From contig JANXAW010000017.1 of NCBI GenBank assembly GCA_025061985.1, positions 1 through 38,288 on the forward strand: a stretch of 38,288 nt of DNA. Reading direction: 5' to 3'. Position numbers and translations under genes: made by a program. This DNA comes from Fimbriimonadales bacterium. GTDB lineage: Bacteria > Armatimonadota > Fimbriimonadia > Fimbriimonadales > GBS-DC. This document shows, in pieces, positions 3,886 to 33,143 of this stretch. Position 1 is the stretch's first letter; each line of letters opens with the position of its first letter. The notes under the pieces are model-generated. The model did no database searches. It saw only the letters and a program-made list of their open reading frames with translations, and was not told the DNA's origin.

Positions 3886-5366
3886 GCAGAAGTGCGTGCC
3901 GAAGTATGCCACTACGCGCGTGGGGGGCGTTGATAGTAGGAGTTGTGAGCCTCAGCCTTGCCAGTGCCCAGCCGAAGCTGCTAATTTTCGTCGAACGCGC
4001 CCCGCTAACCCAACACAACGACCAGCCATACGACCCCAACGTTGACCTCAAGCCTCACCTAACGCCCTTCTTGCAGGAGCTGCGCAAAGTGCAGGTGGAG
4101 TGGTACGATCCTGCGCACCCAATCGCGCGCGAGTTCGCCCAGCGTCGCGACCTACGCGAGGAGCAGCTACGTGACCCTAACCCGATTCTAAGGGCACAGC
4201 TGGCACGCGCGTGGGGCGCCACCTATGTGATGACCGTTCGTTGCACGCGCGCCCCCGCAACCGCGCAGTATGACTATGCCTTTACTGTGTGGGAGCTAGG
4301 CAAACGCGCTCCCGTATGGCAAGCCCGCGGCTTCCAGCAGGTGGCAACTGGATCAGCGAGCAGAAACGAAATCGCTGCCTTGCAAACCCTGGGGCGCACG
4401 ATTGCCCTACGACTGGATAGCGAACTCTGGAAAGACCTGCCGCGCTTGGCAGCGCAGGTTGTCACGCCACCTACTCGCCCTACTCCTCACGAGCCAGAGC
4501 CACTACCCACAGACCCCAAACAGCAAGCAGAGCAGCTGCTGCGCGACGGCAAGTATCACGAAGCAGTCTTGCCTTTGCGCACCTTAGTGAATGCGGAGCC
4601 TGAGAACCCCACATGGCGCGTGCACCTGGTGCGCGTCTACCGCCGTTTGGGGTTGCTCAGCCAAGCGCGTCAAGCGCTGGAAAGCGCAACACAGCTGCTT
4701 CCCGACGACGAGACGCTGACGCTGGAGTGGGTAGGTCTGTTAGAGGCAGAGGGCAACCTCGCGGAGGCAATCGCGCGTCTCCAAACCGCTATGCAGCGAC
4801 GCGATACTGAACCCCTACGCCTGAGGCTGTTCGATCTGCAACTGCAAGCAGGGGATGCTCAGCAAGCAGCGCGCACATTAGAACCGTTGCTGAGCCAAAC
4901 CGGTGAGGCGGTGCAGTTTCGCCGCTACCTGCTGCGCGGGGCATTCCGCCAGTTAGAAGACTTGCCTATGGAGACCCACGCGCTAGCTGAGGCTTATGCT
5001 GCACTTTGGCTTCAGGTTGCCCAAGGGCTGATGACAGACCTTTCGAGCGAGCTGCTAGATATCCGTCGCCTTGCGAACAGCCCCCGACCCGACTGGAACG
5101 CGTTGCGCGAGCGCAGTGAGCGTGCCGTGCTGCTTGCGCTCAACATTGGGCAGTGGCTGGAGCGGGCGCAGCCGACGGAAGCTACGCGCACATTGCTCGC
5201 CCACGCACGCTTTGCCAGCCAGCTGCTGGTGCAAGCGGCGCAGCATATGGCACGATATGTGCTGTTGCGTAAGACAGAGGAGTTGGAGCGCGCCAGCCTG
5301 CTGCGCATCGAGGCGATGCGCGAACTGGAGGCAGCTAAAAACGCGCTCCCCAAACGCACGCTATGA
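3873..5366 (+). CDS. Exported TPR-repeat protein
   Basis: A 497-residue protein with an N-terminal signal sequence (hydrophobic core WGALIVGVVSLSLASA, cleavage likely after ASA). After it comes a ~150-residue globular region resembling penicillin-binding-protein-activator or CsgG-like N domains in general style only; I do not assign it to a family. TPR repeats run from about 210 to 340 (DGKYHEAVLPLRTLVNAEP, LGLLSQARQALESATQLLP, EGNLAEAIARLQTAMQ). The C-terminal ~150 residues are helical. An alternative start is the ATG at 3906 (MPLRAWG), which also keeps the whole signal peptide; the choice is uncertain. The gene overlaps its upstream neighbour by 13 nt and its downstream neighbour by 4 nt (ATGA), which implies translational coupling. 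It is probably a periplasmic partner of the preceding membrane TPR protein. Confidence 0.78.
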   Translation: MQRVGRSACRSMPLRAWGALIVGVVSLSLASAQPKLLIFVERAPLTQHNDQPYDPNVDLKPHLTPFLQELRKVQVEWYDPAHPIAREFAQRRDLREEQLRDPNPILRAQLARAWGATYVMTVRCTRAPATAQYDYAFTVWELGKRAPVWQARGFQQVATGSASRNEIAALQTLGRTIALRLDSELWKDLPRLAAQVVTPPTRPTPHEPEPLPTDPKQQAEQLLRDGKYHEAVLPLRTLVNAEPENPTWRVHLVRVYRRLGLLSQARQALESATQLLPDDETLTLEWVGLLEAEGNLAEAIARLQTAMQRRDTEPLRLRLFDLQLQAGDAQQAARTLEPLLSQTGEAVQFRRYLLRGAFRQLEDLPMETHALAEAYAALWLQVAQGLMTDLSSELLDIRRLANSPRPDWNALRERSERAVLLALNIGQWLERAQPTEATRTLLAHARFASQLLVQAAQHMARYVLLRKTEELERASLLRIEAMRELEAAKNALPKRTL

Positions 5367-6013
5367 CGGATGGGAATGCGTTGGTGGTTGGGTTAGGGCT
5401 AGCGGCAGCGGGGGGTGTTTTGCTCGCCCTTATAGGGCGTCGGTGGGAGCTGCAGCCCACGTTTGAGCCGCATACGCGCGTGGAGCTGCGCGTAGGCACG
5501 CAGACTTACGCTACGCTACTGGCAGAGGCTGACTCTAAGCATATTGCGCTCGTACCTCCTTTGCGGCGTGGGTTGCCCCTTGCCTTTGAGGCAGGCACGC
5601 TTGCTACCCTCCGCATCGCCACTGAAAGGGGGCTGTATGAGGCAACCATTCAGTTCGCGGGGCGTAGCACGCAGCTACGCCCGTTGCTCCACGCCCGCCT
5701 TGTAAGTCGCTGGCACCACCTGCAGCGGCGACGCTACGAGCGAGTGGTGTTGCCCGATGAGGTGCAGGTGGTGCTGCGCTACGCGGGCGAGGAGTGGATT
5801 GGTTGGGCGCACGATGTAAGCATAGGCGGCATTTGCCTCTACGCACCAGTCGCCACGCCCACAAACACAACTGTACAAGTGGAGCTACCGCACGCCTTGA
5901 AAGGCTTGTGTCAAAGCAGGGCGGAGCGAATGGCGCGTGTGGTAGCTTGCGAACGCGCCCCACATCGCTACGGCTACGCTTACCGCCTCCGACTCGCCTT
6001 CGCCGATGGCTAA
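5363..6013 (+). CDS. PilZ-domain c-di-GMP-binding protein
   Basis: A 216-residue protein with one N-terminal membrane segment (residues ~6-25), a YcgR-like N-terminal beta domain (~35-110) and a C-terminal PilZ domain (~118-214). The PilZ c-di-GMP signature is complete: the RxxxR motif is R123-R127 in RRRYER, and D151-S153-G156 forms DxSxxG in DVSIGGICLY. Proteins of this family bind the second messenger cyclic di-GMP and control motility or polysaccharide synthesis. The membrane anchor and the position between exported TPR proteins and a glycosyltransferase suggest control of surface glycan assembly (inference). It starts within the upstream stop codon (ATGA) and overlaps the GT2 gene by 8 nt. 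Confidence 0.85.
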   Translation: MTDGNALVVGLGLAAAGGVLLALIGRRWELQPTFEPHTRVELRVGTQTYATLLAEADSKHIALVPPLRRGLPLAFEAGTLATLRIATERGLYEATIQFAGRSTQLRPLLHARLVSRWHHLQRRRYERVVLPDEVQVVLRYAGEEWIGWAHDVSIGGICLYAPVATPTNTTVQVELPHALKGLCQSRAERMARVVACERAPHRYGYAYRLRLAFADG

Positions 6014-6968
6014 CCGCCCCGATGTATCGGTCATCATCGTCAGCTACAACACGCGCGAGTTGTTGCGCGCGTGCCTTTGCTCGCTGCTGCACCAAGAAGG
6101 CGATTGCCCCCGTCTGGAAATCGTTGTCGTAGACAACGCTTCTACTGACGGCAGTGCAGCGATGGTTGCTAGCGAGTTCCCCCAAGTGCGCCTGATTGCC
6201 AATCACGACAATCGCGGGTTTGGGGCGGCGTGCAATCAGGGCTTAGCAGTGGCGCAGGGGCGATACGCGCTCATTCTCAACGCCGATGTGCGTGCCGAAC
6301 CGTCGGCGCTTAGCCGACTGGTGGCGTTTATGGACACGCATCCCAGTGCCGTTGCCTGCGGTGGGCAGTTGCGCTACCCCGACGGGCGCGTTCAGCCCTC
6401 GTGCGCACGCGAGCTAACACTCTGGTGGGTGTTCTGCGAACAAACGCTACTGGCAAAACTCTTCCCCCGAACGCGCCTGTTTGGGGGCTACTGGCGCACG
6501 GAGTGGGACTTTAGCAGCACCATCGAAACCGAGCAGGTGATGGGCGCCTGCCTGATGTTGCGACGCGGTGCGCCCATCGCCCCACCTCCTGAGCCACCTG
6601 CAGGCGTGGAGTTCCCCACTTTCGATGAGGCTTACTTCCTGTACTGCGAGGACTCGGATTTGTGCTACCGCCTGCGATTAGCAGGGGGCAAGATTTACTA
6701 TGTTCACGATGCTGTGTTTATCCACCACTTAGGCGCAAGTGGCGAAGCACAGCGCGCGGAGATGGTGTGCTATTACAACCGCGGGAAGGTGCGCTATTTT
6801 CGCAAGTTTCACGGAGCGTGGCAGGCGATGCTTTGTCGGCAGCTCAATCGGTTGGGCGCGCTACTGCGCGTGCTAATTGGGGCAGGAGGCGTAGTACTGA
6901 GCTTGGGCAAGAACGCGCGGGCACGCCAGTACGCAGCAAACTTTTGGAAGGTGCTTTGGTGTTCGTAG
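6006..6968 (+). CDS. Family 2 glycosyltransferase (WbbL/rhamnosyltransferase-like)
   Basis: A 320-residue GT-A fold glycosyltransferase that transfers a sugar from a nucleotide sugar. The N-terminal VSVIIVSYNTRELL strand, VVDNASTDGS, the NRGFGAACNQG loop and the DxD-like LNADVR (metal/nucleotide site) are typical of the GT2 branch that includes WbbL-type rhamnosyltransferases. EAYFLYCEDSDLCYRLR further on contains the ED catalytic-base region. The C terminus is basic with one weakly hydrophobic stretch, suggesting membrane association. The acceptor cannot be told from sequence. It is the last gene of the TPR-PilZ-GT2 operon, overlapping the PilZ gene by 8 nt. Confidence 0.9.
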   Translation: MANRPDVSVIIVSYNTRELLRACLCSLLHQEGDCPRLEIVVVDNASTDGSAAMVASEFPQVRLIANHDNRGFGAACNQGLAVAQGRYALILNADVRAEPSALSRLVAFMDTHPSAVACGGQLRYPDGRVQPSCARELTLWWVFCEQTLLAKLFPRTRLFGGYWRTEWDFSSTIETEQVMGACLMLRRGAPIAPPPEPPAGVEFPTFDEAYFLYCEDSDLCYRLRLAGGKIYYVHDAVFIHHLGASGEAQRAEMVCYYNRGKVRYFRKFHGAWQAMLCRQLNRLGALLRVLIGAGGVVLSLGKNARARQYAANFWKVLWCS

Positions 6969-6987
6969 GCGAGTAAGAGAAGGCACG

Positions 6988-6995
6988 GGTATACT
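6988..6995 (+). promoter_or_regulatory. -10 box GGTATACT of pyrH
   Basis: GGTATACT ends 1 nt before an ATG at 6997 and 10 nt before the in-frame ATG at 7006. A polymerase using this box should start near 7002, which favours 7006 as the start codon. Confidence 0.65.
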
Positions 6996-7005
6996 CATGC
7001 GCACG

Positions 7006-7740
7006 ATGGGGCATTCCAATACCGAGCCGCGTTGGCGTCGCGTGCTGATCAAGCTCAGCGGAGAGGCGTTTGCAGGCGAGCAAGGCGTTGGACTGAACCC
7101 CGAAGCGATTGACTACCTCGCTCGCGAGGTGATCTCAGCGCATCAGCTGGGCGTGCAGACGGCAGTTGTGGTGGGGGGTGGCAACCTTGTGCGCGGCGCT
7201 GCGCTTGCCACCACAGGCATTGAGCACGCCACCGCGGACTACATGGGAATGCTGGCGACGGTTATCAACGCGCTGGCACTCCAAGCCGCGATCGAGCGCT
7301 ACGGCGTAGATACCCGCGTACAATCTGCGATTGCGATGCAGGCAGTTGCGGAGCCGTTTATTCGTCGGCGTGCCATTCGCCACCTTGAGAAGGGGCGCAT
7401 TGTCATCTTAGCAGCAGGCACAGGTAACCCCTTTTTCACAACGGATACGGCTGCCTCGCTGCGCGCCGTGGAGCTAAACGCCGACGCCTTGCTCAAAGCC
7501 ACGAATGTCGACGGTGTGTACGATCGCGATCCGCGCAAGTATCCCGACGCCGTGCGCTTTGAAACCCTCTCCTTTGAGGAAGCGCTGCAACGCCAACTGC
7601 GGATTATGGACTTGACTGCCTTCACGCTTTGCATGGAACGCACTCTGCAGGTTGTCGTATTCAATATCTGGGAGCCAGGCAACCTGCGCCGAATCCTTTT
7701 GGGCGAGCCAATCGGCACGACCATTCGAAGCTCACGCTGA
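7006..7740 (+). CDS. pyrH: Uridylate kinase
   Basis: A 244-residue amino-acid-kinase-fold enzyme that phosphorylates UMP to UDP with ATP. The motifs are complete: RVLIKLSGEAF (ATP lysine and glycine loop), VVVGGGNLVRG, the UMP region GMLATVINALALQ, AAGTGNPFFTTDTAA, and ALLKATNVDGVYDRDP. Length matches the bacterial hexameric enzyme. The start at 7006 (MGHSNTEP) is chosen over 6997 because 6997 lies only one base past the -10 box and would precede the expected transcription start. The gene leads a pyrH-frr-uppS operon, a very common bacterial order; rpsB-tsf, often found upstream, is absent here. Confidence 0.95.
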   Translation: MGHSNTEPRWRRVLIKLSGEAFAGEQGVGLNPEAIDYLAREVISAHQLGVQTAVVVGGGNLVRGAALATTGIEHATADYMGMLATVINALALQAAIERYGVDTRVQSAIAMQAVAEPFIRRRAIRHLEKGRIVILAAGTGNPFFTTDTAASLRAVELNADALLKATNVDGVYDRDPRKYPDAVRFETLSFEEALQRQLRIMDLTAFTLCMERTLQVVVFNIWEPGNLRRILLGEPIGTTIRSSR

Positions 7741-7759
7741 TTTTGAAGGAGGCACCGCC

Positions 7760-8347
7760 ATGGGAAAGCACGAGCCGAGCACACCTGCTACTCCAGATGC
7801 GCTTTTCAAGGACGCAGAGGAGCGCATGAAGCACGCGATTGAACATCTGCGACAAGACCTTGCGGGCTACCGTACGGGGCGTGCAAACCCCGCGATGGTC
7901 GAGCGTTTGATGGTCGATTACCACGGCACCCCGATGCAACTGCAGCACATCGCTTCTATCACCGTGCCTGAGCCACGCCAACTGCTCATCCAGCCTTGGG
8001 ACCAGACTGCGCTGGCAGCCATTGAGAAGGCAATTCGCAACTCCGACTTGGGCGTTAACCCCGTGAACGATGGGCGCTCGTTGCGCATCACGCTGCCGCC
8101 ACTTACTGAAGAGCGACGCCGGGAGCTGATCAAGCAAGTGCATAAGCGCACAGAAGAGGCACGCGTAGCCGTGCGCAACATTCGGCGCGACTTGCACGAA
8201 CACCTGCGCCAACTGCACAAAAACAAACAAATCTCTGAAGATGAACTCAGGCGTTACGAGCAGCAGATGGAGAAGCTCACCCACAAGTACATTGAAGAGA
8301 TTGACAAAATCCAGAAAGCCAAAGACGAGGAGTTGATGGAGGTCTGA
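7760..8347 (+). CDS. frr: Ribosome recycling factor
   Basis: A 195-residue protein that, with EF-G, splits post-termination ribosomes. It shows the family pattern throughout: an N-terminal helix, LAGYRTGRANPAMVERLMVDYHGTP, LIQPWDQTALAAIEKAI, NPVNDGRSLRITLPPLTEERR, and the long C-terminal helices ending in KAKDEELMEV. The start is set by a GAAGGAGG Shine-Dalgarno sequence just upstream of 7760. There is an extra ~10-residue Pro/Thr-rich N terminus compared with the usual ~185. It lies 19 nt after pyrH and 9 nt before uppS, so it is co-transcribed. Confidence 0.96.
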   Translation: MGKHEPSTPATPDALFKDAEERMKHAIEHLRQDLAGYRTGRANPAMVERLMVDYHGTPMQLQHIASITVPEPRQLLIQPWDQTALAAIEKAIRNSDLGVNPVNDGRSLRITLPPLTEERRRELIKQVHKRTEEARVAVRNIRRDLHEHLRQLHKNKQISEDELRRYEQQMEKLTHKYIEEIDKIQKAKDEELMEV

Positions 8348-8356
8348 AGCGGGCGG

Positions 8357-9124
8357 ATGCAAGTTATTGATTGGCGTGCGGAGGCGGTGCGGCGCGGCAT
8401 AGACCTAGCGCGCTTGCCTCGCCACATTGCACTGATTATGGATGGGAATGGACGGTGGGCACGCGCACGCGGGCTGCATCGCTTAGTCGGGCATGCGAAT
8501 GGGCACGGCACAGTACGACGCTTGGTGCTAGGCTGCGCTGAGCTGGGCATTGAGGTACTGTCGCTCTACACCTTCAGCACCGAGAACTGGCGTCGCCCGC
8601 GAGAAGAGGTAGAGGGGCTAATGCGCCTGTTGGAGCGTTCTGCTCGCGAGGAGCTGCCCGTAATGATGCGCAACGGCGTGCAGATTCGCTTCAGCGGGCG
8701 ACTCCACGAACTGTCGCCTCAGCTACAGCAGGTTCTGCGCCGTGCCGAGCAACTGACTGCTCACAACCGACGGATTATTTTGCACCTTGCGGTCAACTAC
8801 GGCGGGCGTGCCGAACTGGTAGACGCGATGCGCGCTATCGCTCGTGAGGTACAAGCAGGGCGCCTCTCGCCCGACGCCATTGACGAGCAAACGATACAGG
8901 CACACCTTTACCAGCCTGATTTGCCCGACCCTGACCTACTCATCCGCACGGCGGGCGAGCAACGCACCAGCAACTTTTTGCTGTGGCAAGCTGCCTACAC
9001 AGAGCTGTACATCACACCCGTACTGTGGCCCGATTTTACGATGGAGCACCTGCTAGAGGCGATTTTGGACTATCAGCGTCGGCAGCGCAAGTTCGGCGCC
9101 GTGCCAGAGCCAGTAGCGGGCTAA
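8357..9124 (+). CDS. uppS: Isoprenyl (undecaprenyl) diphosphate synthase
   Basis: A 255-residue cis-prenyltransferase that makes the undecaprenyl-PP lipid carrier for peptidoglycan and other glycans. The motifs are HIALIMDGNGRWA (catalytic D29), ELGIEVLSLYTFSTENWRRP, VNYGGRAELVDA and the pyrophosphate region DLLIRTAGEQRTSNFLLWQ. The usual family form of the last motif is SGExRxSNFLLWQ; here an Ala replaces the first Ser, a minor variation. The protein ends in ELYITPVLWPDF and a short tail. It is the last gene of the pyrH operon. Its stop lies 2 nt from the end of the convergent gcvPA, with no terminator visible between them. Confidence 0.94.
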   Translation: MQVIDWRAEAVRRGIDLARLPRHIALIMDGNGRWARARGLHRLVGHANGHGTVRRLVLGCAELGIEVLSLYTFSTENWRRPREEVEGLMRLLERSAREELPVMMRNGVQIRFSGRLHELSPQLQQVLRRAEQLTAHNRRIILHLAVNYGGRAELVDAMRAIAREVQAGRLSPDAIDEQTIQAHLYQPDLPDPDLLIRTAGEQRTSNFLLWQAAYTELYITPVLWPDFTMEHLLEAILDYQRRQRKFGAVPEPVAG

Positions 9125-12915: not shown

Positions 12916-12990
12916 GCCGACATAGCTCAGCGGTAGAGCGACGCACTCGTAATGCGTAGGTCGTGGGTTCGAATCCCACTGTCGGCTCCA
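12916..12990 (+). tRNA. tRNA-Thr (anticodon CGT), CCA encoded
   Basis: This is a complete 75-nt cloverleaf. The acceptor stem is GCCGACA/TGTCGGC. The D arm is GCTC-AGCGGTA-GAGC. The anticodon stem is ACGCA/TGCGT with loop CTCGTAA. The T arm is GTGGG-TTCGAAT-CCCAC. The discriminator base is U, followed by an encoded CCA at 12988-12990. Anticodon CGT reads the ACG threonine codon. Confidence 0.96.
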
Positions 12991-23657: not shown

Positions 23658-23874
23658 GAGGCGAGCGACTCGCCGCCATCGTCATTCCGAGCGCAACGAG
23701 GAATCTCAAACCCCTCGCTTCGCTCGGGGTGACAAAAGAAAGGGCAGTGGTTGGCGCAATAGCGACTAAAGTCGCGCCCTGTGCAAACGAAGCCCGCCTA
23801 CACGGGCTACTGACAGTGCTGGTAGCTCACCAACGATAGGCACGAAGACGGTTGATTACGCCTCGGAAGTCTCT
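23658..23874. repeat. Intergenic cluster of extragenic palindromic repeats
   Basis: This lies between convergent DUF1080 and zwf genes. It holds a hairpin just after the DUF1080 stop (GGCGAG/CTCGCC, 23660-23674). Next is a segment starting GTCATTCCGAGCGCAACGAG that pairs poorly with a later CTTCGCTCGGGGTGACA, resembling a widespread dispersed repeat type. Two more hairpins follow: GCGACT/AGTCGC at 23762-23775 and AGCCCG/CGGGCT at 23791-23808. No gene is seen. The hairpins may serve as a bidirectional terminator, though there is no T run. Confidence 0.6.
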
Positions 23875-25338
23875 TTAGGTCGTCGGTAGGGCAGGGCGCA
23901 GGGGGCGCCACTGGTGGTGCTCGGAGTCTAAAATCCGCACGGCTTCGGGGGGTCCCTCGCTGCCTGCGGGGTAGGTGGAAAGCGGGCTGTCGCCACTTTG
24001 CCATGCCTTGAGGATGGGGTCTAACACGCGCCACGCCCACTCCACCTCGTCAAATCGCAAAAAGTGCTGGCGGTTGCCCTCCAAGGCGTCCAGCAGGAGC
24101 GTGGTGTAGGCGTCGAAGCCCTCTTGCCCCGCCTCGCGGTAGGGGGCACGCAGCACAATCGTGCGCGGCTTCAGCTCCAGCCCGAGCTTTTTGGCTTGCG
24201 CCACCAAGTAGATTGCCTCAGCGGGCTTCATCTCAAAGATAAACCAGTTCGGCTCCAGCCGATCCAGTGGCGTTTCGCGAAACAGGTGCAACGGGGGCAC
24301 TTTGAACTGGATGGCGATTTCGCTGCGGTCGGCGGCGAGGCGTTTGCCCGTGCGCAAGTAAAACGGCACGCCCCGCCAACGCCAGTTGTCCACGTACAGC
24401 TTGATCGCGGCGTAGGTTTCGGTCGTGGAGTTGCGAGGGATGCCTTCTTCCTCGAGGTAGCCGGGCACGCGCTCGCCGTTGATTTCGCCTGCGGTGTATT
24501 GGGCGCGCACAGCGAAAGCATTCACCGCACTGCGCGGGATCGGGCGCACGCTTTTGAGCACCTTCACCTTCTCGGTGCGCAGGTCGTCATACACCAGACT
24601 GCTGGGCGGTTCCATCGCGGTGAGCGCAAACAGCTGCATCAGGTGGTTTTGGATCATATCGCGGAGGGCGCCTGCTTGGTCGTAGTAGCTCGCGCGCCCC
24701 TCCAGCCCTGAGGTCTCCGCTGCGGTGATTTGCACATGCTCCACATAGTTGCGGTTCCACAGCGGCTCCAGCAGCAGGTTCGCGAAACGGAACACCAAAA
24801 TGTTTTGCACAGTTTCTTTACCCAAGTAGTGATCGATGCGAAAGATTTGTTCCTCGTGCCAGTGTTCGCGCACTTGGCGGTCGAGGGCTTGGGCGCTCTC
24901 AAGGTCATAGCCGAAGGGCTTTTCGATGATGAGCCGACGGAAGCCGTGCGTTTCGTCGTGGTAGCCCGCGTGTGCCAGCAGTTGGCTGGCGGTGGCAAAC
25001 ACGCCAGGGGGCAGGGCGAGGTAGAACAGGGCGTTGCCGCGCACATACTCGCCCAGTTGGCAGATGCCCTGCTCGTCCAGCCCACCTTGCACATAGGCGA
25101 TAAAGCGCTGGCAGAACTTCTCCCAGCCGTCCAGCGACTTGCCCGCCTTGCGCAGCTCGTGTTCCACTTCGTTGAGGTATTGGGGCAGGGTGTAGGGGCG
25201 TCGGGCGTAGAGCAGGATGCGCACATGCTCTGGAAGCAGGTGGGCACGGCACAGTTGGAGCAGGGCGGGTAGCAGCAGGCGGCGCGTGAGGTCGCCCGTT
25301 GCGCCGAAAATCACGATACAGGTCTCGCGCGTGTCCAT
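23875..25338 (-). CDS. zwf: Glucose-6-phosphate 1-dehydrogenase
   Basis: A 487-residue enzyme that oxidises glucose 6-phosphate to 6-phosphogluconolactone with NADP, opening the oxidative pentose phosphate pathway. The nucleotide motif GATGDL is at 12-17, EKPFG at 139-143 and the active-site RIDHYLGKE at 167-175. Later hallmarks are [36 protein letters not shown] and [14 protein letters not shown]. Length is normal. The ATG at 25338 lies 10 nt after a GGTATCCT box, which sits at the very end of the broken HEAT locus. No 6-phosphogluconolactonase gene is adjacent. Confidence 0.95.
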
Positions 25339-25345
25339 CGCATGC

Positions 25346-27255
25346 CTAAGGATACCGTACCAGACGCGCTACCGTTTGGGAAGGGAGAGCTCCACGATGT
25401 CGCGTGCGCGCCACGGCGGGCAGGGCGGCTTGGGCGGCGGTAGCTGTAGTCCAGTCGTTGCCTAAAGCCCTCGTTCCGTGGCGGTCAATCGCAGCGGGGT
25501 AGGGCAGCTCGCGCGACAGCACCAGCAGCGCGGCGTCCAGCGCAGGCGCGAGCCACTCCACCTGCTCCGCCGCATACACCCGCGCCGCACGGGCGAGGTC
25601 TTCGCAGCCCTTCGAACAAATTGATTGTTGTCGTCCAAGAGCTGTTCAATCTCCCGCGCGCTGTTGGTGCTAGCAACCGCGCACAGTGCTTTACAAGCTG
25701 CCTTGCGGACAAGGGGGCTTCGATCCCTCAGAGCTTGAATCAGGCTAGGCGTCGCCTCGTGGGCGTGAGCAGCAGCAACCGCTTCACATGCCCATTTTCG
25801 TACGAAGCTGTCGGGATGCCTTATCAACGTCGTCAGCTCGTTGCGTGCGTCTGAATCGCTATCCAAGGAAACCAGCGCTTCCAAAGCGGCACATCGCACA
25901 AGCGCATCGCTGTCATAACGCATTTGCCGAAATGTCTCTAACTTTCGGGTGCCAGCAACTTTCGCCAATGCGCGTAGCGCTTCTGCACGAACGAAGCGGT
26001 TCGCTTCGCTGAGGTGCCTCAGTAGAGAATGCTCGATCACTGCACGCATCTGACTATCAAGCTCGCTTTCGGCAGCTATCCGACGTATTACCCGACCAAA
26101 CACCAGCTTTTATCAAGTTGTCGCGTGAGTCAAGAGCATTCACAAGACTTGGCAAAGCAAGAACACCTATGCGCCTGAGAGCCTCTGCTGCTAGCCATCG
26201 CTGCTCAAAATTTTCGCTGTTTAGCAAGTTAACCAGCGTCGGTACAGCAGGAGTACCACTTCGAGACAAAGCGATGCACGCAGACCAACGAACCATCTTG
26301 CTTGTGTCGCCCAACCTCTCAGCCAAGATGGGTATTCCCTCTACGCTCCCCAAGTGTCCGAGACTCCAGCAAGCGGTACGACGCACTTCCTCGTCGCTTA
26401 CTCGTATGCGCGCTAAGGAAGCAATCTCACTTGCGTAGTCTGAAGCTCGCAACCTCCCCAAAGCCCAGCATACTGCACGCTCTGTCCACCGTCTTTCCTC
26501 ACTACGAGCTGACAGGATTGTTCTGAGGGTGTCTCGATCTAACGGCGGGCGAATATTCCCGATTGCCCATACTGCCGTGCGAACAAGTTTTCGCCGCATC
26601 TGCCTTCCTGATCCTCCAACGCCTCAATCAGTGCGGGCGTGGCGCGGGCATCACCGATGTTACCCAACGCTTTTGCTGCGGCAGGGCGCACGGACCCCTG
26701 CTCATCCCTCAGTGCCCTAATCAGTGCGGGCACGGCGACGGTTCCCAGTACCACCACCTCTTGGCGCACTGCCTCAGCAGGCAACGCCCGCAGCAACACC
26801 TGTCACTGCGCCCGCTGCGCCAGGGTTTGCACCGCTTGGGTTAGTAGAAAGTCGGTCGCTCCCAGCTGCTGCAACGCTTGCCGAGCCTCCGCAAGCAGTT
26901 CAGCGTGAACCCTCAGCGCAGGCACGGCGCGGGCATCGCCAATCTTGCCCAACGCCTCTGCCGCCGCACGGCGTACCTCCCAGTTCCCATCCCTCAGCGC
27001 TTCAATCAGCGCGGGCACGGTAGGCGCGCCTGCAAGCGCCGACTGCTCCGCAACCGCCAGCTTCAGCTGATTGCGGTTCTTGCGCGCATAGTGGCTGCAG
27101 GACGCCATCAAGCCAAACGCCCGACCCAGCAACACCTCGCAAGGAATGTACGCCACTTGCCACTCGCCCCAGCTGAGGATGCGCAAGCGAATACGATGCT
27201 GCTGCCCCTCCACGCAGGGCACAACGACCTCCACTTCCACTGCCTGCTGCTCCAT
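25346..27255 (-). pseudogene. Broken HEAT/PBS-lyase-repeat protein gene (mosaic)
   Basis: Read from 27255 downwards, this locus encodes HEAT repeats in several disconnected frames. Piece 1 (27255-26806) has a unique ~70-residue N terminus and then HEAT units such as VPALIEALRDGNWEVRRAAAEALG. An in-frame TGA at 26803-26805 interrupts it; repeats continue in the same frame to about 26600 (VPALIRALRDEQGSVRPAAAKALG). A frameshift near 26600 moves to MRRKLVRTAVWAIGNIRP (to about 26105). A second shift leads to a third frame (VFGRVIRRIAAES, to about 25600). A third shift leads to a different C-terminal piece (EDLARAARVYAAEQVEWL, to 25346). The middle ~25600-26600 is visibly less GC-rich than the ends. 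The start at 27255 has a good AGGAGGG Shine-Dalgarno sequence. A decayed or recombined gene is likelier than several small real genes; sequencing error is possible at single shifts. Confidence 0.7.
25349..25356 (-). promoter_or_regulatory. -10 box GGTATCCT of zwf
   Basis: Minus-strand GGTATCCT ends 10 nt before the zwf ATG. It is a one-base variant of the common box, hence lower confidence. Confidence 0.45.
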
Positions 27256-27590: not shown

Positions 27591-28664
27591 TCACAGCTGG
27601 CCTGTGCGGATAGCTTCGCGGATACGCGCCATCCAGCGCGCGTAGAACGCTAAGTTATGGTAGGTTGCTAGTCGGTAGCCCAGCATCTCTTCCGCGCGGA
27701 ACAGGTGGTGGATGTACGCCAGCGAGTAGCGCTGGCACACCCAGCAGTCGCATTCGGGATCCAGCGGTTCTTGGGCTTCGGCGTATTTGGCGTTGCGCAG
27801 GTTCAGTCGCCCACGAGAGGTGTAGACGGCGCCGTGGCGCGCCACGCGCGTGGGCAACACGCAGTCAAACATATCCACGCCTTGCTGAACGGCATACAGG
27901 ATATCTTCGGGCGTGCCTACGCCCATTAGGTAGCGCGGTTTGTCGGCGGGCATGCGGGGTGCCACCAGCGCCACAATCCGTTGCGTCTCCTCCACTGGCT
28001 CGCCCACTGAGACGCCACCAATCGCATAGCCAGGCAGTTCTAGGGCGGTGATTTGCTCAAGGCTCATCAGGCGCAGGTCTTCGTAGGTGCCTCCTTGGAT
28101 GATGCCAAACAGGGCTTGCTGCGTGGGCTTGGCTTGCCACGCCTGTTTGCAGCGGATTGCCCAGCGATAGGTGCGCTCAGTGGCACGCGCGACTTCATCA
28201 TACGAGGCGGGGTAGGGCGGGCACTCGTCAAACGCCATTATAATGTCGCTGCCCAAGTTCTGCTGGATTTGGATAGCGCGTTCGGGCGTGAACCGATGCT
28301 CAGAGCCGTCGATGTGCGAGCGGAAGGTGACGCCGTCGTCGTCAATCTGGCGCAAACTGGCAAGGCTGAACACCTGATAGCCCCCGCTATCGGTGAGGAT
28401 TGCCCCGTGCCAGCTCATAAACCGATGCAGCCCGCCCAGCCGTGCAATCCGCTCGTCGCCGGGACGCAGGTACAAGTGGTAGGTGTTGCCCAAGATGAGC
28501 CGGTAACCCAGCTGCTCCAGTTCGTCTTGGCTGAGCGTTTTGACAGTTGCCTGCGTGCCCACGGGCATAAACACGGGCGTTTCGATGGTGCCGTGTGGTG
28601 TATGCAGTCGCCCAAGCCGTGCGTGCGAGCGCGTGGAGCGCGCAACTACCTCAAACGCAATCAT
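27591..28664 (-). CDS. tgt: Queuine/preQ1 tRNA-ribosyltransferase
   Basis: A 357-residue tRNA-guanine transglycosylase that swaps guanine 34 for preQ1 in tRNAs with GUN anticodons, leading to queuosine. D92 in TDSGGYQVFS and nucleophile D267 in DMFDCVLPTRVARHG form the active site. GGVSVGEP is the base-binding loop. The zinc site is C305, C307, C310 and H336 (CDCWVC and TYHNL). It is about 15 residues shorter than many bacterial enzymes but has all key sites. The ATG at 28664 overlaps the gspE stop by one base (TGATG), so translation is probably coupled; a GTG one codon earlier is possible. Confidence 0.95.
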   Translation of the reverse strand: MIAFEVVARSTRSHARLGRLHTPHGTIETPVFMPVGTQATVKTLSQDELEQLGYRLILGNTYHLYLRPGDERIARLGGLHRFMSWHGAILTDSGGYQVFSLASLRQIDDDGVTFRSHIDGSEHRFTPERAIQIQQNLGSDIIMAFDECPPYPASYDEVARATERTYRWAIRCKQAWQAKPTQQALFGIIQGGTYEDLRLMSLEQITALELPGYAIGGVSVGEPVEETQRIVALVAPRMPADKPRYLMGVGTPEDILYAVQQGVDMFDCVLPTRVARHGAVYTSRGRLNLRNAKYAEAQEPLDPECDCWVCQRYSLAYIHHLFRAEEMLGYRLATYHNLAFYARWMARIREAIRTGQL

Positions 28665-29926
28665 CACTCTTCATACACGCCCGCGTAGACGGCTTGGATT
28701 ACCTCGTGCGGGGTGGTCAGCCCGCGCAGTACCTTGTCGCGCCCGTCATCCAACATCGTGCGGAAGCCTTCTTTGAGCGCGATTTGCAGAATCTGGTCGC
28801 CCGAAGCGCGCGAGACAATCGCCTCGCGAATGGCGGGGCTAATTCGCAGCAGCTCAAAAATGCCCGTGCGCCCGCGATAGCCCGTGTTCATACAGTTCTT
28901 GCAGCCCTTGCCAATCCAAAACCGTGCCTGCGAAAGCACTTCCTTCGAGATTTTGAGCGCAGCGATTTCGTCGGCGGTAGGTTGATAAGGCACGCGGCAG
29001 TCGGGGCAAATCAGGCGCACTAAGCGTTGCGCCATCGCGCACTGCAAGGTCGCCGCAATCAGGTAATCCTCCGCACCCATATCCATCATACGGCTGATGG
29101 TCTCGATGGCGTTGTTCGTGTGGAGGGTGGATAGCACCAAGTGCCCCGTGAGCGCGGCTTGGATGCCGATTTGTAGCGACTCGCGGTCGCGAATCTCGCC
29201 AATCATAATCACATCGGGGTCGTGGCGCAGCATCGCGCGCAGGGCACGCGGGAAAGTGATTTTCTCTGTGACCTGCACCTGCATCACATTGTCGGGGAAC
29301 TCGTACTCAACGGGATCCTCCACCGTGACGATGTTGCGGTGCACGCGGTCGAGCGTGTGCAGCGAGGCGTAGAGCGTGGAGGTTTTGCCAGAGCCAGTGG
29401 GTCCTGTTACCACCAGCATTCCGTAGGCGGTTTGCAGGGCGCGTCGCCAGTTCGCCAGCACCTCTGGAGGCATGCCAAGCGCATCCAGTTTGACCTGCAT
29501 TCGGGCAGGGTCAAGCAGGCGTATTGCGATGCGTTCCCCGTTTAGCGTGGGGATGCACGATACGCGCGCGCTCAGCCGCCGATCCATGTACTCCATATCG
29601 ATGCGCCCGTCTTGGGTGTCGCGCTTCTCGTCTAAGTGCATGTTCGCTGCGAGTTTGACGCGGCTAATCATCGCCTGAATTAAGTCGGGCTGCGTGATGA
29701 CATCGTACTCGTGCAGTAAGCCGTCGATGCGGAACCGAATGCGGAGGGCATTGCGCTCAGGGTGCATATGGATGTCTGAGGCGCCGCGCTCCAAGGCTTC
29801 AATAAACATTTGGTCAACGCGCTGCACGGCGAGGGAAAGCTCTTCGCCGCCCATTTCGCGGGAGATGCCCCCGTGACGCATCAGAATGCGAAACACACGC
29901 CCTGAACCGCGCATACCTGCGTACAT
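28664..29926 (-). CDS. Type IV pilus assembly/type II secretion ATPase (PilB/GspE family)
   Basis: A 420-residue hexameric secretion ATPase. It has the N2 domain (ASDIHMHPERNALRIRFRIDG), Walker A GPTGSGKT (175-182), the Asp box VEDPVEYEF, Walker B DPDVIMIGEIRD and the His box LSTLHTNNA. The zinc-binding tetracysteine of the PilB/GspE class is complete: C307, C310, C342 and C345. The full N1 domain that many PilB proteins carry is missing, so it is a short form. It would power pilus extension or secretion from the cytoplasmic side. No other pilus or secretion gene is in the window. The start has GGAG about 9 nt upstream. It is the first of two overlapping genes with tgt. Confidence 0.92.
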   Translation of the reverse strand: MYAGMRGSGRVFRILMRHGGISREMGGEELSLAVQRVDQMFIEALERGASDIHMHPERNALRIRFRIDGLLHEYDVITQPDLIQAMISRVKLAANMHLDEKRDTQDGRIDMEYMDRRLSARVSCIPTLNGERIAIRLLDPARMQVKLDALGMPPEVLANWRRALQTAYGMLVVTGPTGSGKTSTLYASLHTLDRVHRNIVTVEDPVEYEFPDNVMQVQVTEKITFPRALRAMLRHDPDVIMIGEIRDRESLQIGIQAALTGHLVLSTLHTNNAIETISRMMDMGAEDYLIAATLQCAMAQRLVRLICPDCRVPYQPTADEIAALKISKEVLSQARFWIGKGCKNCMNTGYRGRTGIFELLRISPAIREAIVSRASGDQILQIALKEGFRTMLDDGRDKVLRGLTTPHEVIQAVYAGVYEE

Positions 29927-30708: not shown

Positions 30709-32043
30709 GTGGTGCGCCGTTGGATTGTTGGATTAGGGCTGCTTTTGGCACTTAACCTAGTAGCCGTCGGGCGATGGCACTTCGACGACGGTCTCTACGA
30801 GAGCTTTGAGAACCACGACACGCGCACCATTCTGAAACGCTTGCAGCAGCCCCACTCGGTGTGGGAATGGTTTGTGGGGGATTGGGTGTTGGGGAACGGC
30901 TTCTATCGCCCGTTGCCCAGCGTGCTGTACCAGCTGGATTACTGGCTTTGGGGCGACCACTTGCTGCGCTGGAAGTTGACAAATGGGGTCTTGGCGGTGC
31001 TAAATGCGCTGCTGGTGGTAGCGCTTGGGTACGTGCTAGCGCAGCGGCGCGACTTTGCGTTGACGGTGGGGCTGATTTTCACGCTGTGGCAAACGGGTTT
31101 CCTACCGCCATTACCTCCGTGGCTGAGTTGGGTGGCACTAGCAGGGGGCATTGTGTGGGGCTGGTACACTGGCAACTGGCGAAGGGGCGCGCTTGTAGGT
31201 GCCTTTGCTCTCGCGGCGCTCGTCGAGCTTCGCTTTATCCCCAACTTGGCAGACTTGCATCAGCAAAGCTTTGCCTACCGTGCGGTTGGCTGGATTCCGG
31301 GGCGCACGGCGACTTTGATGACTGCCTTTGTGCTGGTGGCGCTGATTGGAACAGGCTTGCTTGCGCGCACAGGCAAGGCTCGTTGGGGAGCGTTGGGCTT
31401 GCTTGGGTGCATCGGGGCGTTGCTAAGCTACGAGCAAGCGATTGTGGTGCCTGTGCTGATGGCGCTTGTGGGGTGGGTGTGTCGCTCAGGGGATGCGGTC
31501 TCTGAAGCGCCGGGCAGGCTTCGCCTCCCTTGGCGAGCGCTCGCGCTAAGCGGGCTTTGTTTGCTGTTGCTGGTGCCATACGCCCTGTTCTATCGCACGC
31601 ACATTCCAAGCGGCACGGACTATCATCAGCAGCGCTTCAAACGGCTTCGAACCTTGCCGATAGCAGCGTTGAACTGGTTAGTGCCGCCAGCACCAGAGGT
31701 AGTGCTGCAGATAGGGCTGGTGCGTACAGCACCATTGACGCTCGCCTTCCCTAGCTTTTGGGCAGCGCAGTTGGCAGCAATCGCCTACTTAGCTGCCCTG
31801 CGAGAAGGCTTGCGCCGGCGCGAGGCGCTTCTGGGTTGGCTGGGATCCGTCATCGCTTACGCCCCCCTAATGCCTGTGCTACCTCTGATGCACTACTACT
31901 ATCTCCCCGCGGCACTGCGTGCGTTGTGGATAGGTATACTGCTGCTATGTCTGCTTACACCGCGCCCGACGCAAGGGGTTATTTTGGTCGGTATGGGGGA
32001 CGCTTCGTGCCCGAAACCCTCATCCCTGCGCTTGAGGAATTGA
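30709..32043 (+). CDS. Polytopic membrane protein, GT-C glycosyltransferase-like
   Basis: A 444-residue integral membrane protein with about ten hydrophobic segments. After the first helix comes [14 protein letters not shown], followed by [18 protein letters not shown]. An acidic DD pair in the first external loop followed by an RPL...LDYxLWG stretch is the arrangement of GT-C fold transferases that use polyprenyl-phosphate sugars (PMT/TMTC-like). This is a remote resemblance, not a firm assignment. The start is GTG 30709 or GTG 30712; neither has a clear ribosome site. Its last 97 nt overlap trpB in another frame, and the trpB promoter lies inside it. Confidence 0.65.
31933..31940 (+). promoter_or_regulatory. 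-10 box GGTATACT of trpB
   Basis: GGTATACT ends 6 nt before the trpB ATG at 31947. It lies inside the coding region of the upstream membrane protein gene. Confidence 0.6.
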
Positions 32044-33143
32044 CGGAGGCGTATCTTGCTCTCAAAGACGACCCTGACTTCCAACGCGAGCTGAACTACT
32101 ATCTGGTGACCTACGCGGGGCGCCCCACGCCGTTGTATTTTGCGGCGAATTTGAGCCGTGCGCTGGGGCATCAGGTTTATCTCAAGCGCGAAGACCTCTG
32201 CCACACGGGGGCGCACAAGATCAACAACGCCTTAGGGCAGGCGTTGCTAGCGAAGCGGATGGGCAAAAAGCGCATCATCGCCGAAACAGGCGCGGGGCAA
32301 CACGGCGTGGCAACAGCAACCGCTTGCGCCCTGCTGGGACTGGAATGCGAGGTGTACATGGGCGCAGAAGATATGCGGCGCCAGGCACTGAATGTGTTCC
32401 GCATGCAGCTGCTGGGGGCACGGGTGATTCCCGTGGAGAGTGGCACCGCCACCCTCAAAGATGCCACCAGTGAAGCCATCCGCGACTGGGTGACGAACGT
32501 GCGCACCACGCACTACATCATCGGCTCGTGCGTAGGACCGCATCCATATCCGATGATGGTGCGCGATTTTCAATCGGTAATCGGGCGCGAAGCGCGCGAG
32601 CAAATCCTCGCCTACACAGGAAGACTGCCCGATGTAGTCATCGCCAGCGTGGGTGGCGGTAGCAACGCCATAGGCATCTTCTACCCGTTTATTGAAGATG
32701 AAAGCGTGCGCTTGATTGGCGTGGAAGCGGGCGGGCGCGGACTGGAGACGGACGAGCACGCCGCTAGCTTAGTAGCAGGCGAGTTTGGCGTGCTGCACGG
32801 CTCCGCCAGCCTCGTGCTGCAAACCGAAGACGGACAGATTCGCCTCACGCACTCGGTCTCGGCAGGGTTAGACTATCCGGGCGTTGGTCCCGAACACGCT
32901 TACCTAAAAGAAATCGGGCGCGCCGAGTACTATGTGGCAACCGACGAGGAGGCGTTGAGTGCGTTTGTGTGGCTGGCACGGCACGAGGGCATCATCCCTG
33001 CGTTGGAGTGTGCGCACGCGCTGGCGTATCTGGCGAAGCTGGCGCCTACCTTACCCCCCAACAGCATAATTATCGTCAACCTATCGGGGCGAGGCGATAA
33101 AGATGTAGCGCATGTGGCGCAATTGCTCACACAAACCTCCTAA
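31947..33143 (+). CDS. trpB: Tryptophan synthase beta chain
   Basis: A 398-residue PLP enzyme that condenses indole with serine to give tryptophan. It is of the TrpB1 type: [15 protein letters not shown] at the N terminus, the PLP lysine K91 in [38 protein letters not shown] for the phosphate, and [11 protein letters not shown]. Length is normal. The ATG at 31947 is fixed by the family N terminus; the frame stays open further upstream but that part is not TrpB-like. trpA, normally next to trpB, is absent; the downstream gene is unrelated. The gene begins within the preceding membrane protein gene, with its own promoter. Confidence 0.96.

Follow-up and report, generated by a model that had tools for sequence, protein, structure and literature searches.

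A HEAT-repeat locus broken in several frames beside zwf in a Fimbriimonadales genome as the probable remains of two adjacent operon genes

The window, which is the whole stretch of 38,288 nucleotides analyzed here, carries on its minus strand between tgt and zwf a set of HEAT fragments in two frames, split by a TGA and by frame changes and followed by a tail in other frames. The locus very probably represents the remains of adjacent HEAT and DUF2201-VWA genes of one operon, the HEAT gene being a chimera older than the split between this genome (G000) and its relative G006, with decay coming only after that split. A sequence-only reading had proposed that HEAT genes of different origin recombined here; this view is corrected to the remnant of two dead genes, with an identity for each part (Table 1). 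The locus is an ordinary pseudogene pair, made by ordinary gene decay, and it is the intact operon behind it that has been little studied.

The window corresponds to contig C26 in a genome of 1.35 Mb that is split into 44 contigs and 65.9% complete. It has full-length open frames for zwf, tgt, a T2SSE ATPase, SecDF and others, which argues against a generally error-rich contig. An Rfam scan of the window gave a single match, a tRNA at 12916-12987, with nothing at the HEAT/VWA locus, and a promoter and terminator scan gave no signal exceeding chance. The stretch 30709-33143 was considered as a second broken locus and rejected, the open frames being long there.

Table 1. Features of the tgt-zwf interval and its two neighbors, in window coordinates; L040 and L041 are the G006 loci with the HEAT gene and the VWA gene
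Feature	Position	Strand	Remarks
zwf (glucose-6-phosphate dehydrogenase)	23875..25338	-	intact downstream neighbor; G6PD_N + G6PD_C
VWA/DUF2201 relic piece 3, from residue 464, stop TAG 25371-25369	25369..25439	-	44/50 to L041:1828-1877 over 25439-25390
VWA/DUF2201 relic piece 2	25424..25475	-	47/52 to L041:1359-1410; residues 308-325; 778 nt missing before it
VWA/DUF2201 relic piece 1	25476..25603	-	122/128 to L041:453-580; residues 6-48 (G006 protein numbered from L041:438)
Fusion point of truncated HEAT gene to VWA gene 5' end	25603..25604	-	DNA comparison with G006
HEAT pseudogene, low-GC array	25604..26610	-	85% to L040:2109-1092; HEAT_2 E = 1.2e-23, 1.3e-32
One extra base relative to G006 (~26098)	26095..26101	-	shifts frame
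Deletion junction, ~205 nt missing relative to G006	26610..26611	-	AGGAAG microhomology (6 nt, both sides); frame shifted
Spacer (non-HEAT, native), then second HEAT unit	26611..26914	-	protein alignment with G016 H1/H2 and G010
In-frame TGA	26803..26805	-	Trp at that position in G010 and both G016 copies
HEAT pseudogene 5' part: ATG at 27255, conserved ~70-aa head, first HEAT unit	26915..27255	-	86% identity to G006
tgt (queuine tRNA-ribosyltransferase)	27591..28667	-	intact upstream neighbor; PF01702 E = 2.7e-163

The DNA search took in the window's own genome and 60 relatives, 61 in all, and 16 of them have DNA matches to the HEAT locus. By far the best match outside the window is in G006 (Fimbriimonadales MAG SKW266), a member of the same genus, whose contig C202 (JAOAES010000342.1) carries an intact 627-aa HEAT frame at L040:2674-794. 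Two segments of the window align to it, 27268-26915 to L040:2687-2334 with 85.8% DNA identity and 26610-25604 to L040:2109-1092 with 85.0%, so the suggestion that intact homologues be sought for the segments paid off for these two. The flanking genes are 79-83% identical between G000 and G006, hence the 85% of the HEAT part fits ordinary descent. The two HEAT copies have in common the head, the low-GC array, the composition, and an AGGAGG immediately upstream of the ATG; they differ in that the G006 frame is intact, has no spacer, and retains its last 298 coding nt, HEAT homology in the window stopping that far short of the gene end, at 25604. One scan of the HEAT protein against named genomes returned G006's own record as the sole match.

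That the separated segments still encode HEAT repeats was read correctly from the letters: four fragments, taken singly, exceed the Pfam HEAT_2 cut-off (E = 7.1e-11 for the ORF 27255-26806, then 1.3e-10, 1.2e-23 and 1.3e-32), which places them in the HEAT repeat family (PF13646/PF02985/PF03130). The TGA is also there as described, the frame being open on either side of it (27294-26806 and 26802-26542), and it falls within a spacer set between HEAT units, the second of which is 76% identical to the first. Nor is the segment around the TGA foreign: the spacer is native to the gene family, missing from G006 but found in G010 and in both G016 homologues. It was recognized by protein alignment alone, a DNA search with 26925-26600 giving HEAT-unit matches and short hits. 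Because the units resemble one another, the exact homologue in relatives of the unit at 26736-26611 is uncertain.

There are 6 breaks in total, namely one stop, one 1-nt indel, and 4 deletion or fusion junctions. The frame changes reported near 26600, 26100, and 25600 are all present, but a one-base indel accounts only for the one near 26100; the others are junctions, with ~205 nt missing at 26611/26610 and a gene fusion at 25604/25603. The two further breaks, which the earlier reading did not have, are both in the tail, at 25476/25475 and 25439-25424.

The last segment had been called not HEAT-like, and indeed 25645-25349 read in one frame has no Pfam match. It is a DUF2201/VWA relic, consisting of 3 collinear pieces, each in a different frame, with 88-95% DNA identity to one gene on G006 contig C358 (L041). 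That gene is intact and matches DUF2201_N, a putative metallopeptidase (E = 2.6e-29), and the VWA-like DUF2201 (E = 4.1e-18), whereas the window keeps ~230 of its ~1460 nt. The 433 nt missing between pieces 2 and 3 are lost at a 16-bp imperfect repeat common to both. The HExxH and DxSxS motifs define the DUF2201 family (PF13203 + PF09967); in the G006 member they are HExxH at residue 74 and DTSGS at residue 350, both falling in parts deleted from the window. The window's tail is tied to this family through its DNA identity to the intact member. The frame traced in the earlier reading indeed ends with a stop at 25348-25346, leaving 7 nt to zwf, but the relic's own TAG is 30 nt before zwf. Since the 4 HEAT fragments pass HEAT_2 separately and the tail is collinear with a single intact gene, the pattern is not chance.

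VWA piece 1 has a higher identity to G006 than the HEAT part (95% against 85%; approximate Fisher p = 0.0007, on rounded counts entered from BLAST identities), a gap not expected from plain descent at a single rate. Stronger conservation of piece 1 or a later exchange may be the cause.

The lower GC of the middle is real, at 0.545 (26610-25604) against 0.651 (27255-26915), 0.645 (26914-26611), and 0.711 (25603-25372). On this dip, and on the array's best match outside G006 being only 34% identical, unlike the head, one could build the case that the breaks arose when HEAT genes of different origin recombined. We consider that improbable. G006 carries the same mosaic as an intact 627-aa frame, with GC of 0.669 in the N-terminal, 0.528 in the middle, and 0.515 in the C-terminal part, and the dip therefore predates the decay. 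Deletion junctions account for two of the 3 frame changes, the neighboring VWA gene rather than a HEAT gene supplied the last segment, and the spacer segment is native. What stands of the mosaic idea is the HEAT gene's own composition; what falls is its connection to the breaks. The head is common to several relatives, the HEAT genes of G010 and G016 have more even GC, and a search of 291 phylum genomes found only weak relatives of the low-GC array outside G006 and the window. We infer that the gene is an old chimera, an operon-type head joined to an array of another HEAT lineage, older than the G000/G006 split. Across 439 codons the window and G006 copies give a dN/dS of 0.28, which means that constraint applied during most of their divergence, and the chimera was apparently a working gene before it decayed.

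Decay, as the earlier reading had it, is borne out by an intact homologue in a relative together with several independent disabling changes; G006 has intact frames of both the HEAT and the VWA gene, and constraint looks relaxed on this branch. At 50 head sites conserved among the outgroup, there are 5 amino-acid departures private to the window and none private to G006; a looser threshold with 79 sites gives 8 and 1. Six outgroup HEAT heads, with duplicate loci removed, were used for polarisation at the 50 sites, and the numbers are small. For VWA piece 1 the departures are 2 in the window and 0 in G006, from a polarisation round in which some outgroup loci were repeated (one G014 locus 3 times, one G012 locus twice). 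These small counts all point one way, toward relaxed constraint on the window branch.

A sequencing or assembly artefact, in which one or two intact genes were misassembled or miscalled, might be suspected in a fragmentary genome (44 contigs, 66% complete). Miscalled bases would not, however, join two genes that are operon neighbors in relatives while also making internal deletions of 778 and 433 nt; the excess of changes at conserved sites is on the window branch, and the long genes next to the locus are open. No indel correction could restore the missing VWA motifs or give the locus a uniform composition, and we regard an artefact as very unlikely. Programmed frameshifting or stop read-through to a working protein might appeal to the still recognizable HEAT segments and the overall constrained change ratio, but it would have to cope with 6 breaks of differing kinds and a VWA part with neither HExxH nor DTSGS, and the HEAT genes of G006, G010, and G016 require no recoding; its chances are close to nil. 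It is similarly hard to believe, at about the level of the artefact, that the cell still makes and uses a short 150-aa protein from the 5' piece (27255-26806, comprising the head and the first HEAT unit). It does have an open frame, the AGGAGG before its ATG, and a HEAT_2 match, but the polarised changes at conserved sites fall within this very piece.

The decayed pair has its model in relatives. HEAT then VWA on the same strand is found on 4 contigs of 3 relatives (G007 C26 and C32, G010, G016), an AAA+ gene precedes HEAT in G010 and G016, and the window keeps the HEAT-then-VWA order and strand. In several loci a longer antisense frame masked the VWA gene in the ORF labels, and VWA positions were taken from separate analyses. 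The G010 and G016 operons resemble the window in this order and strand and differ from it in being complete and in having post-head HEAT arrays of another repeat type. G014 has the AAA+ gene and the HEAT head arranged in another order. Two observations weigh against the operon origin: in the closest relative, G006, the HEAT and VWA genes are on different contigs (C202 and C358), and the AAA+ partner was not found in G000, although that genome is only 66% complete.

With a limit of E <= 1e-19, a search of 30 other genomes finds VWA relatives in 8; only C-terminal VWA pieces are seen in G001 and G011, and the C-terminal half in G009. A phylum survey with DUF2201_N matched 34 of 151 genomes, and HEAT-like sequence lies within the fetched flank in 3 of the 30 DUF2201_N loci returned and scanned. 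None of the 12 fetched zwf loci has VWA beside zwf. In G009, VWA is ~4.2 kb upstream of zwf on one contig, with ORFs between them that might mark the ancestral order of the window; one of these ORFs (HgmA_N) has its G000 homologue on another contig, C44. No relative of the VWA protein was found among viral contigs.

From these comparisons the following course of events is proposed. The starting point would be co-directional neighbors in an AAA+ ATPase / HEAT-repeat / DUF2201 metallopeptidase-VWA operon, which we infer was functional when intact in this lineage, with a HEAT gene already chimeric (operon-type head and lower-GC array) before this lineage parted from G006. The window copy would have lost function only later: a Trp codon would have mutated to TGA, a single base would have been inserted, and deletions, in some cases between short repeats, would have excised part of the HEAT array and removed the HEAT 3' end. 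HEAT would thereby have been fused to the VWA gene, most of which would also have been lost. The order of these events is likewise conjectural.

For the intact system, we propose from 3 proteins presumably made together an ATP-driven machine, in which the AAA+ ATPase would act on the VWA-domain metallopeptidase as its partner and the HEAT array would serve as scaffold or client-binding arm. With the VWA motifs gone, the proposed system cannot work as such in the window. The AAA+ partner in G010 scores 24.9 against AAA_3, which we take to be the MoxR-type AAA+ model, below its cut-off of 27, and 28.8 against AAA_5, above its cut-off of 22. PADLOC gave matches to HEAT-containing or AAA models only and none for VWA; NCBIfam gave none at cut-off for the AAA+ or HEAT proteins and none for VWA or Rep. 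The open-licence PMC literature yielded no published description of an AAA+/HEAT/DUF2201 operon. The nearest likeness is to the MoxR-vWA ternary conflict systems described in eLife in 2020 (PMC7159879), which also pair an AAA+ ATPase with a vWA protein; that paper lists HEAT repeats, and in rare cases metallopeptidase domains, among vWA effector-position domains. The present operon differs in having HEAT as a separate gene and an AAA+ protein below the AAA_3 cut-off, and we do not assign it to the VMAP ternary systems.

The comparisons outline a small Fimbriimonadales operon family of AAA+, HEAT, and metallopeptidase/VWA genes with a conserved head, differing arrays, and repeated decay. We would go further only as speculation that we ourselves doubt: that this is a hitherto undescribed system, perhaps one of conflict or client recognition, that evolves fast by joining its constant head anew to HEAT arrays unrelated to one another, with rearrangement driving both diversification and frequent loss. 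If that were true, the rearrangements would be the array swap in the G000/G006 ancestor, the partial tandem duplication in G016/G007, the spacer and array differences, and the decayed heads of the window and G009. The G009 head is at ~1495-1725 of L099 (contig C10) and has two stops; its decay suggests repeated loss.

Several features of the related loci were seen along the way. The duplication in L046 (G016 C16) is at 4994-8656, in the order HEAT1, a truncated VWA N-terminus fused into an AAA+ C-terminal copy, HEAT2, full VWA. Between L043 735-3586 and L046 8900-6049, from G007 C32 and G016 C16 and thus from different genera, 2,852 nt are 99.5% identical, the similarity breaking off inside a REP-like repeat; this would be either recent transfer or binning contamination. 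The VWA genes of L041, L042, L044, L045, and L046 vary in the low-complexity linker that joins the metallopeptidase domain to the VWA domain, and in L046 this linker contains 42-nt tandem repeats. On G006 C202, a gene for a replication-associated (Rep) protein (PF23343) at L040 3-764 is convergent with HEAT, 26 nt from the HEAT end and at the contig edge, perhaps an insert between HEAT and VWA. The AAA+–HEAT interval of the same contig contains, at L040 3515-4824, a ribbon-helix-helix (antitoxin-like) ORF flanked on each side by a PIN-domain (toxin-like) ORF. The idea that paired repeats on either side of the G016 operon are the ends of a mobile element was dropped; related copies are in G010, G006, and G009 loci, and the repeats are accordingly taken as REP-like. 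Such short palindromic repeats are scattered through these genomes, for example at window 23751-23808, L040 3341-3397, and L046 3102-3430 and 8704-8900.
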